From an uncultured Erysipelotrichaceae bacterium (GTDB lineage Bacteria; Bacillota_I; Bacilli_A; RF39; UBA660): 64,000 bases of DNA. Made by a program: the position numbers and the translations under genes. The stretch spans positions 1 through 64,000 of the forward strand of contig CAOJUX010000002.1 of the NCBI GenBank assembly GCA_948444795.1, read 5' to 3'. Within the stretch, counting starts at the first letter, position 1. The number at the start of each line of letters is the position of its first letter. The notes beneath the pieces are model-generated. The model saw only the letters and a program-made list of their open reading frames with translations, had not been told where the DNA came from and did no database searches. Below are positions 5,814 to 60,600 of this stretch, one piece after another.

Positions 5814-5839
5814 GATAATCATCTCATTTCTTAAAACTT

Positions 5840-5891: not shown

Positions 5892-5920
5892 TTGACATCG
5901 GGGGGGGGGTATGTTAGAAT
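5892..5920 (+). promoter_or_regulatory. phase-variable promoter with poly-G spacer
   Basis: Consensus -35 TTGACA (5892-5897) and extended -10 TGT-TAGAAT (5912-5920) are separated by exactly 17 bp. Ten of these 17 bases are a pure G run. Adding or losing G would move the spacing off the optimum, so tract length should set transcription. As read here the spacing is the ON value. A G6 Shine-Dalgarno run (5934-5939) follows before the ATG at 5945. Confidence 0.8.
5900..5909 (+). repeat. poly-G tract (G10) in promoter spacer
   Basis: Ten G between the -35 and -10 boxes of the promoter for the gene at 5945. It is the only one of the five long G tracts that lies outside a coding region. Confidence 0.9.
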
Positions 5921-5944
5921 ACTTTTTGATTTAGGGGGGATTTT

Positions 5945-7219
5945 ATGCCAAATGTAGTGCAAAGATTAAAATTAGAACTTGAAAGACTTATTAAAGAAAC
6001 AGGAGAGATATGTAATCAATTTAATAACCAAGCTTATAAAATATTGAAAAACAAATATATTAATAATATTACGGAAAATAACAAAATTATTATAAATGGT
6101 ACAATGGAAGAGTTTATTCAAAATGGTGAAACTGCTAGAGACTTTTTAGGGAAAATTTGTGGGTTATTAGGCTTTTTAGAAGCTGATGTTACTAAAAATT
6201 TAAATTATTATTCTAATTTTTATTTTTTAAGTTATATAATAGAAAATTTAAATTTTCCCATAGATGATTGTCTAGAAATAATAGCTTTTGTTATTATTAA
6301 AGATTTATCAAATCCTGCAATAAATAGCTCACAGCCCATGGTTGCTTTTAATGCTGAAGATTTTGAAGCTTTAGGAATTACTGGAAATAAAATAAAAAGA
6401 GTTTTAGATATTTTAAAATATCAAGATCCTAAGACTGGTACTATTGATTTAGAAAATGTAAATGAAGAAGATATAAAATTATTTTATAAAGTAGCTAACT
6501 ATAAAAATGATAAACAAGATTTTGTTAATAAAGAAAAAATAAAAGCGATGCAATCTTTTAAAAAATGTTTTGTTGATAGAGGATACGAAGAGGAAGATAT
6601 TGAAATAATAATTAATAATCTTAATTTTCTTGGGGTAAAGCCTAGTTTGCTAGATAAAATAAAGGGTCATTTATATAAAACTATAAATAAAATAAATAAA
6701 CAAGAAACAGCCAAAGAACAAGTGAGTCTAAATTTCGAAAAAGAAACTGTAATAAAAAAAGAAAAAACTCTTAGTAAAAAAGAATATTTTGAAGTTTTAG
6801 AAAAAATAAGTATTATGTATGATTTAAAAGAAAATGTTCCAACAAAACTACTTGATTTAAATGAACTAATTTATTTAATAAATTTATTATATAAAGCTGG
6901 TTTCAAAGATGAAGAAATAAAAAGAGTTATATTAAATACTTATAAAGCATTTAAAACTAAGGAAAAATATTATGCTATTGGTTTATTTAATTGTTTTTAT
7001 GAAAAATTATTATTTTATAGTGATAGATATCCTGAAATAAAAGAATCAATAGAATTTATAAAATCATGCTTGCAAGAGATGATGATAGCAAATGATGAAG
7101 ATTACGGTTTATGGAAAAGTATGATTATAGAAGAAATGAATAAGTATAATGATTTATTAAAACAAAAATATGAATATGAGATGGAAAGAGGAATATGGAA
7201 AGCATGTCAAAAGCAATAG
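5945..7219 (+). CDS. unknown cytosolic protein, paralog 1 (424 aa)
   Basis: No recognised domain. It is helical and charged, without signal peptide or membrane segment. Landmarks are a coiled-coil-like N-terminus (residues 1-30), a conserved central block (LDILKYQDPKTGTIDLENVN) matched in the neighbour as YDIFGRQNPKTGEIDRDLLK, a Lys/Glu linker around residue 260, and a C-terminal 60 residues nearly identical to the next gene. The start ATG follows AGGGGGGA. It overlaps the next gene by 25 bp. Transcription starts at the poly-G promoter, so the pair is inferred to be phase-variable at the RNA level. Phase-variable control often marks surface, phage-defence or antigen genes, but nothing in the sequence decides between these. 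Confidence 0.75.
   Translation: MPNVVQRLKLELERLIKETGEICNQFNNQAYKILKNKYINNITENNKIIINGTMEEFIQNGETARDFLGKICGLLGFLEADVTKNLNYYSNFYFLSYIIENLNFPIDDCLEIIAFVIIKDLSNPAINSSQPMVAFNAEDFEALGITGNKIKRVLDILKYQDPKTGTIDLENVNEEDIKLFYKVANYKNDKQDFVNKEKIKAMQSFKKCFVDRGYEEEDIEIIINNLNFLGVKPSLLDKIKGHLYKTINKINKQETAKEQVSLNFEKETVIKKEKTLSKKEYFEVLEKISIMYDLKENVPTKLLDLNELIYLINLLYKAGFKDEEIKRVILNTYKAFKTKEKYYAIGLFNCFYEKLLFYSDRYPEIKESIEFIKSCLQEMMIANDEDYGLWKSMIIEEMNKYNDLLKQKYEYEMERGIWKACQKQ
7011..7193 (+). repeat. 183-bp direct repeat, copy 1
   Basis: Differs from 8231-8413 at only one base that I can see (g/a at 7026/8246), although the rest of the two paralogs has diverged strongly. It encodes the shared C-terminus beginning near YPEIKESIEF. 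Confidence 0.9.
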
Positions 7220-8427
7220 ATAAAATCCAAAGAGAAATAAATGATATAATTATTAAACTTAAAAGTAGAGAAATTACCATATACAAAGAAATATTAGAAC
7301 TTAAAAAAATAACAAATAATAATTTAAATGATCTAGAAACAAATTCTTCTAAAATAAAAGAAGAAAGTTTGCGTTTAGATGATTATATTAATAAATTAAA
7401 CAAATTAAGTTATTTTTTTAATGTTAATCCTGATGAAAAAATAGCATATTTTTCAGATTTTAAAGTTTTAGATAGTTTATTAAAAAGGCCTATTTTTAGT
7501 ATTAAAGACTCACTTGAAATAATATCCTGTGTAATTAATAAGAATTTAAGCAACGATTTAATTAATTCTGGATTTTTTAATGGAGAAATAACAAAAGAAG
7601 ATTTTGATAGATTTAAAGTAAATGTTGAACAAAGAAAAAGAATCTATGATATTTTTGGAAGACAAAATCCTAAAACTGGAGAAATAGATAGAGATTTGTT
7701 AAAGGAAGATGAGGAACTACTAGATAGAATGATAAAATATAAAAACAAACATAGTAATCTTTTAGATCCTGATAAAAAAACAGCTATGCAAGTATTCAAA
7801 AGACATTACATAGATAAAGATTATACAAAAATTGATATAAAATTTATTATTTCTAGTTTAACTATTTTAGAATTTGATAAAGAGTTAGTTTTTAACATAA
7901 AAGGATATTTAGAAGAAGTATTAAAGAAAACTAAAATAAAAAAAGAAACGAAAGAAGAAAAGAAAGTAAAAGGAATAGAAATAAAATCAAGAGATTATAA
8001 AGAATATAATAAAATATACAACGAGATAGAAACAATGTATGATTTCGATACAAAATGGTTTAAAAAGCCAATTGATTTAGAGGAATTAATATATTTGATT
8101 AGTTTAATGAAAAAAGTAGATATTGATGAAAAAGTGATGAAGCAATGTATTTTAAATTTTAATAAAGATAAAATAACAAATAATAATTATAAGTCTAGTA
8201 AATCGTTTGAAATATATTTTAATAGATTAGTATTTTATAGTGATAAATATCCTGAAATAAAAGAATCAATAGAATTTATAAAATCATGCTTGCAAGAGAT
8301 GATGATAGCAAATGATGAAGATTACGGTTTATGGAAAAGTATGATTATAGAAGAAATGAATAAGTATAATGATTTATTAAAACAAAAATATGAATATGAG
8401 ATGGAAAGAGGAAGATCTTTAAATTAG
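7195..8427 (+). CDS. unknown cytosolic protein, paralog 2 (410 aa)
   Basis: Paralog of the preceding gene with the same architecture: N-terminal coiled-coil region (residues 1-60), a PKTGEID block mid-protein, a Lys/Glu-rich linker (~residues 240-265), and an almost identical last 60 residues. The start lies inside the end of paralog 1, so the genes are co-transcribed from the poly-G promoter. An in-frame ATG at 7204 is an equally plausible start. No known domain; no signal peptide. It is followed by a terminator overlapping its stop codon. Confidence 0.75.
   Translation: MESMSKAIDKIQREINDIIIKLKSREITIYKEILELKKITNNNLNDLETNSSKIKEESLRLDDYINKLNKLSYFFNVNPDEKIAYFSDFKVLDSLLKRPIFSIKDSLEIISCVINKNLSNDLINSGFFNGEITKEDFDRFKVNVEQRKRIYDIFGRQNPKTGEIDRDLLKEDEELLDRMIKYKNKHSNLLDPDKKTAMQVFKRHYIDKDYTKIDIKFIISSLTILEFDKELVFNIKGYLEEVLKKTKIKKETKEEKKVKGIEIKSRDYKEYNKIYNEIETMYDFDTKWFKKPIDLEELIYLISLMKKVDIDEKVMKQCILNFNKDKITNNNYKSSKSFEIYFNRLVFYSDKYPEIKESIEFIKSCLQEMMIANDEDYGLWKSMIIEEMNKYNDLLKQKYEYEMERGRSLN
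8231..8413 (+). repeat. 183-bp direct repeat, copy 2
   Basis: Second copy of 7011-7193. The offset is 1220 bp, so recombination between copies would delete paralog 2 and leave a fused paralog 1. Confidence 0.9.
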
Positions 8428-8446
8428 CTTTTGGGCTAATTTTTTA
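8422..8446 (+). terminator. terminator after the paralog pair
   Basis: Stem TTAGC / GGCTAA around TTTTG, followed by six T. It separates the pair from the heat-shock operon. Confidence 0.75.
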
Positions 8447-25260: not shown

Positions 25261-26982
25261 AGTTAAGGAATTATTTCAAAGTAAAAATTATGATGAAGCA
25301 TTAACTTTACTTGACTTTGAAACATATAATACAGTTTTATTAAATCAAAAGATGTCTATATTTATAGCTACAAAAGATTTTGCAAAAGCAAAAGAGGTAT
25401 ATGATTCAATAAAGAAACCAGATCATTGTTCTTTCAAATACTATAAAATTTTGAAAACTGAAATTTCAAAAGAAGCCACTTCATTAGCCGGTACGGGGGG
25501 GGGTATGTAGATGCTATTAACACTCTTAGTTTAATTGATGATGATACAAGATTATTAAATCAGCAAATGTTTATGCATTTAAAAAATGAAAATTATAGTA
25601 AAGTTATGGAAGTTTATAATCAAATAAAAAAACCAGATCAATATACTTTTAAAAACTTTAATCAAGCCATTTTTGAAATATCTCGTAAAGTAAAAATACT
25701 ATGTGAAGATGACCAATCTTTTGATGATGCTTTAATATTTATTAATGCACTTCCAGAAAATATTTTTGCGTTAAATGAAAAATTATTTATATATATATCT
25801 AAAAAAGATTTTAAAACTGCTGTGGAAATATATAAATCTATCAAAAATCCTAATAAAAAAACACAAGAATATTACTTTAAATTAAAAAAAGAATTATCAA
25901 AAGAGGTAACTAATTTATGTGAAAAAGAAAGTTTTGATGAAGCTTTAGATCTTTTAAATTTAATAGACACTCAAAATACAGTTTTATTAAACCAAAAGAT
26001 GTCTATTTATAAAAATAAAAAAGACTTTCACCGTGCAATAGAAGTTTATAAACAAATAAAAAGGCCTGATCAAATAACAAAAAAATATTATGAAATTATA
26101 ATAAAAGAAATACCTAAAGAAGCGATGATATTATGTCAAAAAGAAGATTTTGGTGAAGCGTTATCTTTAATTTCATTATTAGATCCAAATGATTCTATCA
26201 AGTTAATAATGCAAATGTTGATATATTCTTTAAAAAAAGAATTTGAAAAAGCTTTAGATATTTATATTTTTCTAGATAAAAATGATGAATATGTAAAAAA
26301 AGTCTACCATACTCTTGAATTTAAATTATCTTGTGAAGTAAAAGATCTTACGGATAAAAAACTTTATAATGAAGCTTTAGAACTTTTAAATTTATTAGAT
26401 ACTCAAAATACAGTTTTATTAAACCAAAAGATGTCTGTTTATATATCTTTAAAGGAATATAAAAAAGCTAAAGAGGTATATGATAATATTTTGAATGCTA
26501 ACAATAAAACTATAGAATATTATGGAGTTTTACAAAATGAACTAATGACTGTTATTGATAGCCTAGTAAATGAAGGAAATGTAGGTGGGACTTTAGAATA
26601 TGCAGAATTATTAGAAGAGAGTACATACAAAAAACAAATTATGTCTTTATTCACTTCAAAAAAATTAGAAGATAACGAAGCAAGTTTTTATTTAACTAAA
26701 TTATATAATGACACTTTGATTATAGAAGAAATAGATAGTAGTAATTTAGAAGATTATAAAAAAGAAATATTTAAGATGGCTTATTGTGAAAAATACAATT
26801 TAAATTATAATATAAATGCTTTAAAAAAATTAAAAAGTGTTTATGAAGAAAACAAAAAGGTTTTAAAAATTATAAATAAATTACTTGTGCACTCTAAAAG
26901 AAAATTAAAATTATTTGATTTTGGTTTTTATGAAGAAGTTTTATCATGTGAAATATCTTTAGAAAATGAAATGAAATTTTAG
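25235..26982 (+). CDS. poly-G phase-variable TPR-like protein (out of frame here)
   Basis: ATG after AAGGAAGG (a GTG at 25226 is also in frame). The first frame gives two repeat units and then hits nine G and a TAG stop at 25508. Adding one G joins it to the second frame, open to 26982, for 582 aa. The repeat register is then restored exactly: SLAGTGGGYVDAINTL aligns with SLCEKESFDEALDLL of the later units. The second part has at least five further units with LLNQKMS-type motifs, the shared IEEIDSSNLEDYKKE end domain and a FDFGFYEE tail. No signal peptide, so a cytosolic protein is switched, which is unusual for contingency loci. Confidence 0.8.
25495..25503 (+). repeat. poly-G tract (G9) in the TPR gene
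   Basis: Nine G at the turn between two helices of a repeat unit, where Gly insertion is tolerated. G10 (or G7) restores the frame. Confidence 0.9.
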
Positions 26983-56091: not shown

Positions 56092-56900
56092 ATGAAAAAT
56101 TCTGAAGCAAGAAAGTTTATTAAATACATATTTGATTCTTTCAAAAAAAGAGGTAATCATTATTTATCTACTAATACCTCACTTTTTAAAAATATAATAA
56201 GTATCTATTTAACTTGTGTAAAGAAACCTGAATTTGAAACAATAATAAATAATTATAAGGAAGAATATATTTTTAATGAATCAAGAATAGATAAAAATAT
56301 CACTATTGAAGAGCAATTAGGAATTGGAGAAATGTATGATTATATTTGCAGTTTTGACTTTTATAAAGATAATTTTAATATATTTACAACTTCGTTAATA
56401 TTGCATTCTAAATTATATTCAAAATGTTTATATAAAGAATATGGTGGTAAATTACGAGATACAACTGTTTATTTATTTGATACAAATATTGAAGTAGTTG
56501 ATCCTATAGTGGCTCAAAAATATTTTAACAGTTTAATACCTGTTTCAAACCAAATCTTTGCCCCTTTGAATGAAACCTCGGGGGGGGGCACTTCACTTAT
56601 ATAGATAATTCTATTAAGCAAATTGTAAATTTAATTAAAGTACAACCATTTATTGATGGCAATAAAAGAACTTTTAGAGCATTATTAAATCTTTTACTGA
56701 AAAGAATTAATATTCCACCTATTTATATTGAATTAGAAGAGGCTACAATTTATAAAAATGCATTATTTAAAGCAATTAAAGAAAACGATTATAGTGATAT
56801 TATTAATTTTTATTATTATAAAATTTGTGAAGCTATTGTAATTACTTTAAATATTGATAAATCTATTATTAAATTTGACAATTCAGAATTAAAGTATTAA
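56092..56900 (+). CDS. poly-G phase-variable Fic-domain protein (out of frame here)
   Basis: The first frame encodes a Fic N-terminal half (YGGKLRDTTVYLFDTNIEVV, typical of the strand before the active site) and ends after G9 at TAG 56602. Adding one G joins it to the second frame, open to 56900, giving 269 aa. That part carries the Fic core KVQPFIDGNKRTFRALLNLL. The catalytic His of HPFxDGN(G/K)R is Gln here. Fic proteins usually attach AMP or another nucleotide to target proteins; loss of the His would normally prevent this. Its promoter resembles that of the HExxH gene next door. Both genes interrupt queA-tgt. A switchable, probably non-canonical Fic protein. Confidence 0.85.
56580..56588 (+). 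repeat. poly-G tract (G9) in the fic gene
   Basis: Nine G in a predicted loop just before the helix carrying the Fic motif. G10 (or G7) restores the frame into HFTYIDNSIK. Confidence 0.9.
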
Positions 56901-56947: not shown

Positions 56948-56977
56948 TTGACAAGTATAAGGAAGATATGCTAGAAT
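56948..56977 (+). promoter_or_regulatory. promoter of the HExxH gene
   Basis: TTGACA, 18-bp spacer, extended -10 TGC-TAGAAT, then GGGGG RBS. The boxes, the extended -10 and the leader text (ATCTAATTTAAGGGGGATT) parallel the poly-G promoter at 5892, but the spacer has no G run. Confidence 0.75.
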
Positions 56978-57000: not shown

Positions 57001-57978
57001 ATGAGTCAAATATTAGAAGTAGATTTATTATATTATCATGACATAATTGTAGGTTATGTTGGTAGAGATTTAAAAACAAAGAAAATAAACTATTATACTT
57101 ATATAAACGAATTTAATGAAATAACTCCCAAACTACGAAAAATAAATTCAAAAACATGCAGTGCTTTAGTAAAACAAATTGTTAAGAATTATCAAGAAGA
57201 AAAAATATTATCCAAACGAAAAATACCTAAGGAAATAATGTGGTATATTAAAGAATATTTAGAAAAAATTAAAAGATTTAATATAAATCATAGCTTGCCT
57301 ATAACTAATTTAGAAAATAATTTATCATATTTAAGCCTAGTTAGTATATTGCCATCAAAGGTAGCTAATGAAGGAGTATATATAATACCTACAAATGAGA
57401 TTGAAATTTATATAACAAAAGAAATATGGAATTCTTATTCAAAATTTGAAAAAAAATCAATAAAACAGACGATATTACATGAACTTATTCATATGGAAGC
57501 ATCTTATTATCCGATACATATAGAAGGTAATAGTTTAATAATAAAATGTGGCTTTGCTAAATGTAAATTTAATTTAGAATCAATTAAAATATCAGAACAA
57601 GACATGTTTTATAAAATAGAAAATTGTGAAAGCAATGAAAAAGAACAAATTTTAGAAGAAATAATAAATGAATATAAATGTAGTCTTATAATGCCAAACT
57701 ATATTATGTCATATCCTAATTTTGGTAAAACAATAAACGAACTTTGTAATAATAAATTATTAACAGCTAGATATAATGCTGGAATAGATATTTATTATGA
57801 TTCTTTAATATCTATTATACCAAATAGTGATATGTCAAATGATCTTTTAGGGCATTTAATTTCATGTCATAATGCCATGATTACAGGTAATAAAACAGAG
57901 ATATTAAGAGAAAAAGAAAAAGTAAATAGTTTAATTAAAACTTATAAAGATGCAGATAAAAAAATAAATGATAGATAG
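57001..57978 (+). CDS. HExxH-motif protein, possible zinc metallopeptidase
   Basis: 325 aa. A single zinc-peptidase motif HELIHME (TILHELIHMEASYYPIH) near residue 163 within a region of ~100 residues typical of M78/ImmA-like folds; no helix-turn-helix. No signal peptide. N-terminal ~70 residues begin EVDLLYYHDIIVGYVGRDL and have no match I recognise. Cys pairs follow the motif. Next to the fic gene and with a promoter similar to the poly-G-controlled unit at 5945, so possibly the same regulon or genomic island. The peptidase call is by motif only. Confidence 0.6.
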   Translation: MSQILEVDLLYYHDIIVGYVGRDLKTKKINYYTYINEFNEITPKLRKINSKTCSALVKQIVKNYQEEKILSKRKIPKEIMWYIKEYLEKIKRFNINHSLPITNLENNLSYLSLVSILPSKVANEGVYIIPTNEIEIYITKEIWNSYSKFEKKSIKQTILHELIHMEASYYPIHIEGNSLIIKCGFAKCKFNLESIKISEQDMFYKIENCESNEKEQILEEIINEYKCSLIMPNYIMSYPNFGKTINELCNNKLLTARYNAGIDIYYDSLISIIPNSDMSNDLLGHLISCHNAMITGNKTEILREKEKVNSLIKTYKDADKKINDR

Positions 57979-59565: not shown

Positions 59566-60600
59566 ATGAAAAAATATGAAAAGAATAAAAAACTAAAATA
59601 CACCCTCCTAAGCGTAATAGCCCTAGTCCTAGTACTGGGGGGGGGGTATTTTAGTATATAGAAGTTTTGCATTATTTGAAACAAGTAAAACATTTAATAT
59701 ACTAGAAGGAAGGATACCAAACTTTACCAAAGGAGATATAACTCTAGCAGTATTAGTAGATGGAGAAAAGAAAGAAGAGTTTCCAGATAAGAATGGACAT
59801 AAATATGTTGGATATGAATGTAATAATGATGCTGAAATAGAATTTGATAAAACAAATTGGGAAGTGAATTTGAAAACTACTAAACCCACAATATGTACCT
59901 TAAAGTTTGAAACAAAAATTAAGTGTAATTTATATGATGAAGCTGAGTTAGGAGATTATGTAGTCTATAAACCAAGTAATGAAAGTTATACAATAAGTAA
60001 AGATTTAACAGGAGGTAGTAAAGATGCTACAATAATACCTAGTAATTTTTCTGAATGGAGAGTCATAAGAAAAACTGCTGATAGTATTGAAGTTGTTGCT
60101 GATAAGACAGGCGATGGATGGATTGAATTTGGAAGTGACATAGGCTATAAAAATTTAATTGGAATTTTAAATTTAGCATCTAAACAAATGGAAACACCTG
60201 GAATAACTACTGGCTCAAGACATATGGGTTATTCTAATCAAACTGAATATTGTACTGATTTGTGTGCTGGAGATACTGGATATCAACTTGATGTAGATTT
60301 AGTTGAAAATTCAATAGGTTCTTTGAGTGGGTATGCAGAGAGAGATATTTTTTGGCATCAAGATATAGAGGAAACTACACGTCTGGAGGATATAATTATA
60401 TATTTAGATGGATTCAAGAAGGGGGAGAACCTACACCTATGATAGTTGAATGGGAATATGGCATGTATTATAGTCTGTATGGTGTTGGTACTGCTAACTG
60501 GGCTTATATTCGACCGATAGTTGCCATTTCTAAAGATGCTTTAGCTTACTCTAATGGTGAATATAACTCTAAACAAAAATTCACATTAATTCAAGATTAA
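59566..60600 (+). CDS. poly-G phase-variable surface protein D (two frameshifts here)
   Basis: Same leader and almost the same first ~100 residues as gene A: Lys-rich start, hydrophobic anchor, G10, then TFNILEG..., GDITLAVLVDGEKKEEFPDKNG (in pieces), and KYVGYECNND. As read, G10 puts the frame into a stop; G9 would restore it. A second shift follows at a T6 run (60348-60353): one more T gives FLASRYRGNYTSGGYN and a frame to 60600, matching the LASR-type motif of this surface family. With both repaired it is 344 aa. The C-terminal half differs fully from gene A, so the family is modular: constant anchor, variable exposed part. Confidence 0.8.
59637..59646 (+). repeat. poly-G tract (G10) in surface gene D
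   Basis: Same place and same length as in gene A, 71 bases after the start codon. The frame is open with nine G. Confidence 0.9.
60348..60353 (+). repeat. T6 run at a second frameshift of gene D
   Basis: Six T where seven would join the two long frames (FLASRYRG). It may be decay, sequence error or an extra slip site. Confidence 0.6.

Follow-up and report, generated by a model that had tools for sequence, protein, structure and literature searches.

A promoter-spacer poly-G tract as a very probable slippage switch of transcription in an uncultured gut member of the Bacilli

In a 64,000-nucleotide stretch of DNA (hereafter the window) from an uncultured member of the Bacilli, whose genus is assigned a gut origin from the names of matching records, a run of ten G's separates the two boxes of a promoter that precedes a two-gene operon. 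This raises the question of whether the run switches transcription by changing its length, serves as a fixed part of the promoter, is unstable but without effect, or is an accident of sequence or assembly.

Anatomy of the promoter and its operon

The promoter and the operon that follows it comprise these features:

5892-5920, forward strand: promoter, TTGACA TC GGGGGGGGGG TATGT TAGAAT
5892-5897, forward strand: -35 box TTGACA, a perfect match
5898-5914, forward strand: 17-bp spacer, made up of TC (5898-5899), the G10 tract (5900-5909) and TATGT (5910-5914)
5912-5920, forward strand: extended -10 element TGT-TAGAAT, with TG at 5912-5913 and the hexamer TAGAAT at 5915-5920
5926-5928, forward strand: predicted transcription start, placed by geometry about 7 nt past the -10 box
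5934-5939, forward strand: GGGGGG, probable ribosome-binding site, 5 nt 5' of the ATG
5945-7219, forward strand: first operon gene, 424 aa, predicted all-helical (low confidence)
7195-8427, forward strand: second operon gene, 410 aa, paralog of the first, which it overlaps by 25 nt
8421-8446, forward strand: probable intrinsic terminator, identified by eye as AAATTAGC - loop - GCTAATTT, then T's

This anatomy agrees exactly with what the sequence-only reading had proposed, namely TTGACA and an extended TAGAAT separated by a 17-bp spacer that includes ten G's. Its description of the two genes as paralogous is likewise borne out, with 40% identity between their proteins, neither of which belongs to a Pfam or NCBIfam family. 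The homopolymer lies between recognisable -35 and -10 boxes, as in the porA and tp0126 promoters discussed below, and the 17 bp obtained with G10 is near the sigma-70/sigma-A optimum, 17 being also the median for tract-free TTGACA/TATAAT pairs of the genome. The extended -10 element stops 24 nt 5' of the ATG at 5945. Translational (coding-frame) phase variation was considered and rejected, since the tract ends 36 nt before the start codon (median 37 nt in the promoters of the genus) and upstream of the predicted transcription start.

With a GC content of 24%, a G run as long as G10 is not expected by chance in this DNA: the window has five places with a run of at least nine G's, where dinucleotide-preserving shuffles predict 0.01. 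The combination TTGACA-N15,19-TANAAT is found 4 times, with 0.86 expected. A comparison promoter, TTGACA-18-TAGAAT at 56948-56977 (inside TATGCTAGAAT), precedes an ORF at 57001 whose encoded protein contains HELIH. The sequence-only reading had invoked this promoter as support for the boxes; both the promoter and the ORF exist, but the support is weak when taken alone. The next unit after the operon, hrcA-grpE-dnaK, has a CIRCE-like operator and its own TTGACA-17-TATAAT promoter, which suggests that the consensus is in use here. An Rfam search of the window found no RNA elements.

Searches of the operon proteins against Pfam, NCBIfam and PDB sequences found no family matches, and a structure model based on a two-sequence alignment is all-helical with low confidence (mean pLDDT 55.8). 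Distant homologs of the first protein are present in six other genomes of the genus and in one genome of another genus of the family, and a search with this protein against a genome-contig collection found no related loci. One homolog of the operon genes, in genome G014 (22% identical), is also preceded by a poly-G promoter, TTGACA-N7-G9-TATAAT; the flanks of this promoter are unlike those at 5892-5920, as would fit an independent acquisition. That the operon genes have no known surface role was counted against interpreting the tract as a switch. As a separate observation, the DNA at the 3' ends of the two genes (approximately 7028-7196 and 8248-8415) is nearly identical over about 170 bp, compared with about 40% protein identity elsewhere, and this looks like the outcome of recent gene conversion between the operon paralogs.

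Recurrence and spacing across the genus

Twenty-two genomes of the genus were examined with the pattern TTGAC-N1,16-G8-N0,10-TANNNT, and a poly-G tract between -35 and -10 was detected in 19 of them, at 73 distinct promoters. The reversed pattern, used as a control, gave 0 matches in the same 22 genomes. The pattern with C8 also gave 0, so the G's of these promoter tracts always lie on the non-template strand in the genus; a C-tract form of the architecture was rejected on this result.

These counts also bear on the possibility of an assembly or sequencing artefact, or of a chance meeting between a G-run and promoter-like hexamers. Two-colour Illumina chemistry can generate false poly-G, and the source metagenome-assembled genome (MAG; 1.46 Mb) is fragmented into 74 contigs, with several of its other tracts near contig ends. 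However, the tract is bordered on either side by unique sequence and lies about 5.9 kb into a contig of 75.7 kb, the controls returned 0 matches against 73 promoters, and the same architecture occurs in MAGs from other studies and in cultured isolates. An accident of this kind is extremely improbable. In particular, a contig-edge artefact was rejected from the position of the tract well within its contig, and chance coincidence from the empty reversed control.

Among the 73 promoters, tract length ranges from 8 to 11, most being G10 (44/73). The numbers of bases to the left and to the right of the tract both vary widely, but a larger number on one side goes with a smaller one on the other (r = -0.86); total spacing is thereby concentrated at 17-19 bp even though the position of the tract moves. 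When the right offsets were shuffled among promoters, the variance of spacing rose from 2.5 to 13.1, and 0 of 10,000 shuffles were as low as the observed value; counted against this result is a mild preference for about 17.5 bp in the choice of the -10 box when the 73 promoters were parsed. A feature independent of how promoters or -10 boxes were picked is TGn at the -10 element. Of the 11 genus promoters in which the tract adjoins the -35 box, as it does at 5892, 8 have TG where an extended -10 requires it; the frequency of TG in the window is 5%, and 8/11 for TGn has a binomial p of about 2e-8 at 6%.

An alternative accepts the promoter as real and gives the G-tract, instead of the role of a length switch, that of an element with a fixed structure or regulatory function, be it a protein site, an A-like geometry of the DNA or a G-quadruplex. 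The constant strand of the G's and the predominance of G10 would both suit such an element, as would the length of the spacers: poly-G promoters of the genus have a mean of 17.6 bp and a median of 18, compared with 16.9 and 17 for tract-free TTGACA/TATAAT pairs of the source genome (p = 0.007), a difference of about 1 bp that suggests a geometry of the tract's own. Neither the shifting position of the tract within the spacer nor the variation among same-flank promoters, by one G or from 9 to 14, would be expected of a fixed binding site, and we judge this alternative unlikely.

Spacers longer than 17 bp also prevail beyond the genus. In a strict set obtained by searching 386 genomes of the family, a total spacing of 17 bp is found in only 2 of 82 promoters; where the tract abuts TATAAT, exactly 17 bp is scarce (these same 2/82) and 18-19 bp is common. 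In the genome-contig set, 17 bp occurs in 5 of about 124 among the matches listed and 18-19 bp is again common, with a smaller group at 15-16 bp and possible sampling bias. The excess at 18-19 bp means either that the geometry of the G-tract may shift the optimum or that the assembled majority alleles may often be one step off the strongest state.

Length variation and the proposed switch

Differences in tract length are evident among closely related promoters. In G033, a genome of the same family, eight promoters follow TTGACAAATAT(G/A)C-Gn-TAT(C/T)CT with n = 9, 9, 10, 11, 11, 13, 14 and 14. Where the gene behind such a promoter could be read, its product has a hydrophobic segment at the N-terminus, and several of these products are close paralogs. 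In G139, n runs from 8 to 13 across near-identical flanks, a range that omits one tract of 15 running into low-complexity sequence near a contig end. A stricter search of the 386 family genomes found nine sets of promoters that have identical left flanks within one genome and differ by exactly one G. All of these differences were observed between paralogous promoters of one assembly, not at one promoter across a population; the nine sets and the ranges in the two genomes are the pattern that slippage would predict.

According to the proposed mechanism, replication slippage (slipped-strand mispairing) in the G10 tract would add or remove G's and thereby shift the distance between -35 and -10 from 17 bp to 16, 18 and so on. 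The changed spacing would alter polymerase binding and move transcription of 5945-8427 up or down in a reversible manner. Since G10 gives 17 bp, the active state, or nearly so, is predicted at the assembled length, with altered activity at G9 and G11 and weak activity at G8 and G12. If the geometry of the tract shifts the optimum, the strongest allele at 5892-5920 would be G11 and not G10. Heterogeneous expression of the operon may be advantageous.

A further explanation is that the tract is unstable but neutral, either because the operon is mainly under another promoter or because one G more or less makes hardly any difference. A -35 box that is weak or out of place is tolerated in promoters with an extended -10, and the promoter at 5892-5920 has TGn. 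In addition, some DrrA-like ABC ATPase orthologs of the genus possess, at a shorter distance from the gene, another extended -10 that lacks a tract. On the other hand, no second promoter for the operon is evident within 5921-5944, the 5' side of the divergent gene ends at 5822, and neutrality does not explain why tracts are kept inside spacers in 19 genomes with conserved total spacing. Neutrality therefore appears very improbable.

Considering that relatives have this design at dozens of promoters, where the length of the run varies by one G or more, the tract is very probably a slippage-based expression switch, acting on/off or up/down. With high probability, 5892-5920 is a housekeeping-sigma promoter whose spacer carries a slippage-prone G10 and which switches the operon at 5945-8427 reversibly. 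The central claim of the sequence-only reading, a transcriptional phase switch, has thus gained in weight through the recurrence in 19 of 22 genomes, the empty reversed control, the preserved spacing, the TGn enrichment and the same-flank length differences; for 5900-5909 itself, we infer length variation by slippage and its effect on expression from the sequence.

Precedents, distribution and other G-tracts

The likeness to known promoter-based phase variation, which had also been suggested at the outset, holds for two described systems. In porA of Neisseria meningitidis, poly-G lies between -35 and -10, and transcription changes when one G is gained or lost (PMC2791445, PMC3899988). The window promoter similarly has poly-G inside its spacer, but porA is a single outer-membrane porin gene of a Gram-negative pathogen, whereas the present promoter, whose effect on transcription is predicted, serves a two-gene operon in an uncultured lineage of gut Bacilli that has many promoters of this type in each genome. 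In tp0126 of Treponema pallidum, poly-G is also located in the spacer, with an optimum at 17 nt total spacing (PMC7864442), the value found in the window with G10. In contrast, tp0126 encodes an OmpW-like surface protein of a spirochaete and its switching was measured, while switching here is predicted; moreover, most poly-G promoters of the family are at 18-19 bp and not at this optimum.

Two further systems are relevant. Helicobacter canadensis has promoter and coding G-tracts in one genome, with lengths that vary in reads (PMC2823697). The source genome likewise carries both kinds; only five possible promoter tracts were noted in H. canadensis, whereas placement between the boxes was tested here across a genus. 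The pilus switch of Bifidobacterium breve reportedly has its tract in or near the coding sequence and not in a promoter spacer, and it is closer to the coding tracts of the source genome than to 5892-5920. In this gut commensal, surface pili are turned ON or OFF through replication slippage (PMC9187656).

Searches of open-licence PMC papers found no account of switching by promoter poly-G in this group. The mechanism is already known; the lineage, uncultured gut Bacilli, and the scale, many promoters of the kind in each genome, are undescribed as far as the searched literature shows.

A loose pattern matched 67 of 193 genomes of the family (59 of 148 genera), some with more than 30 matches when overlapping parses are included, and 63 of 395 genomes sampled from the class. 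In the genome-contig collection, the strict pattern was found in at least 119 stretches, which derive from gut Clostridia, Bacilli and Saccharibacteria MAGs and from cultured isolates; 'uncultured Tenericutes bacterium SRR15604608_bin.9' and 'uncultured Bacilli bacterium Lapin-026__bin87' carry a promoter identical to that of genus genomes. Isolates with TTGACA-N-G9+-TATAAT, mostly 5' of a gene, include Streptobacillus notomytis, Hydrogenoanaerobacterium saccharovorans, Blautia luti, Lactococcus hircilactis, Streptococcus henryi, and Gemella and Streptococcus sp. (loci L117, L121, L150, L171, L180, L187, L200 and L201).

In six species of the genus, a DrrA-like ABC ATPase gene is under a poly-G promoter. 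Other genes under such promoters encode proteins with Ig-like domains, a calcineurin-like phosphoesterase, a UbiA prenyltransferase, a protein bearing a prepilin methylation motif and many proteins with no assigned function; judged by these annotations, the set is more than surface proteins. Among the DrrA-like ABC ATPase orthologs (L276-L289; L238, L259, L263, L268, L270, L078), the poly-G promoter is present only in some species, and the tract-free extended -10 closer to the gene is conserved in some. This comparison, which rests on part of 14 upstream regions, those readable in the right orientation, shows that the putative switch was gained or lost, and it has no direct bearing on the window locus.

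For this family of uncultured gut Bacilli, it seems rather likely that spacer poly-G is a main phase-variation device, with up to several dozen independently switchable promoters per genome creating combinatorial transcriptional heterogeneity. To our knowledge, coding-frame tracts of host-associated bacteria (Campylobacter and Neisseria, for example) are the only ones for which heterogeneity on such a scale has been described. If true, the switched set of the family would consist of surface proteins, transporters and unknown cytosolic proteins, and porA-type transcriptional phase variation would extend to a large group of uncultured gut Bacilli with many promoters per genome. Tract-length distributions could be read from existing metagenomic and metatranscriptomic reads, and the presence of the architecture in isolates (B. 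luti, L. hircilactis and S. henryi) makes it accessible at the bench.

The source genome contains 30 G-tracts, each 9-10 nt long. That many of them put a reading frame out of register was counted in favour of a switch at 5892-5920, and that 26 of the 30 are exactly G10 was counted against it. Sorted into classes by hand, five lie between -35 and -10 (5900 in the window, L032, L045, L051 and L055, with parsed spacers of 17, 20, 20, 15 and 17 bp among the five), one just 5' of a start codon (L034), seven in unrelated coding frames and 17 within signal-peptide codons of one surface-protein family (127-136 and 59637-59646 in the window; L033, L035-L039, L042, L043, L046, L047, L049, L052-L054 and L056). 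By inspection, coding tracts have G on the non-template (sense) strand. Within the surface-protein family, G10 copies are out of frame past the tract, and the sole G9 copy (L038) is in frame with 485 aa. A homolog in genome G013 (L084) is instead under a poly-G promoter, which points to two switching modes for one protein family.

Several individual tracts deserve mention. The gene at 56092-56897 of the window is split by a G9 tract (56580-56588), and its second part matches the Fic family (PF02661); with its two parts in different frames as assembled, it is probably switched off. At 25495-25503, G9 lies between an upstream open frame and a long TPR-repeat frame, out of frame as assembled. In L053 (tract 1992-2001, reverse-complement coordinates), a surface-protein copy starts at G10 with unrelated sequence upstream and without the usual signal peptide; it could represent a silent cassette, recombination at the tract or an assembly chimera. 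In L034 (tract 2041-2050, reverse-complement coordinates), G10 is located in the leader, 5 nt before the ATG and downstream of a TTGACA/TATGATAAAAT-like sequence, where it might tune translation rather than transcription.
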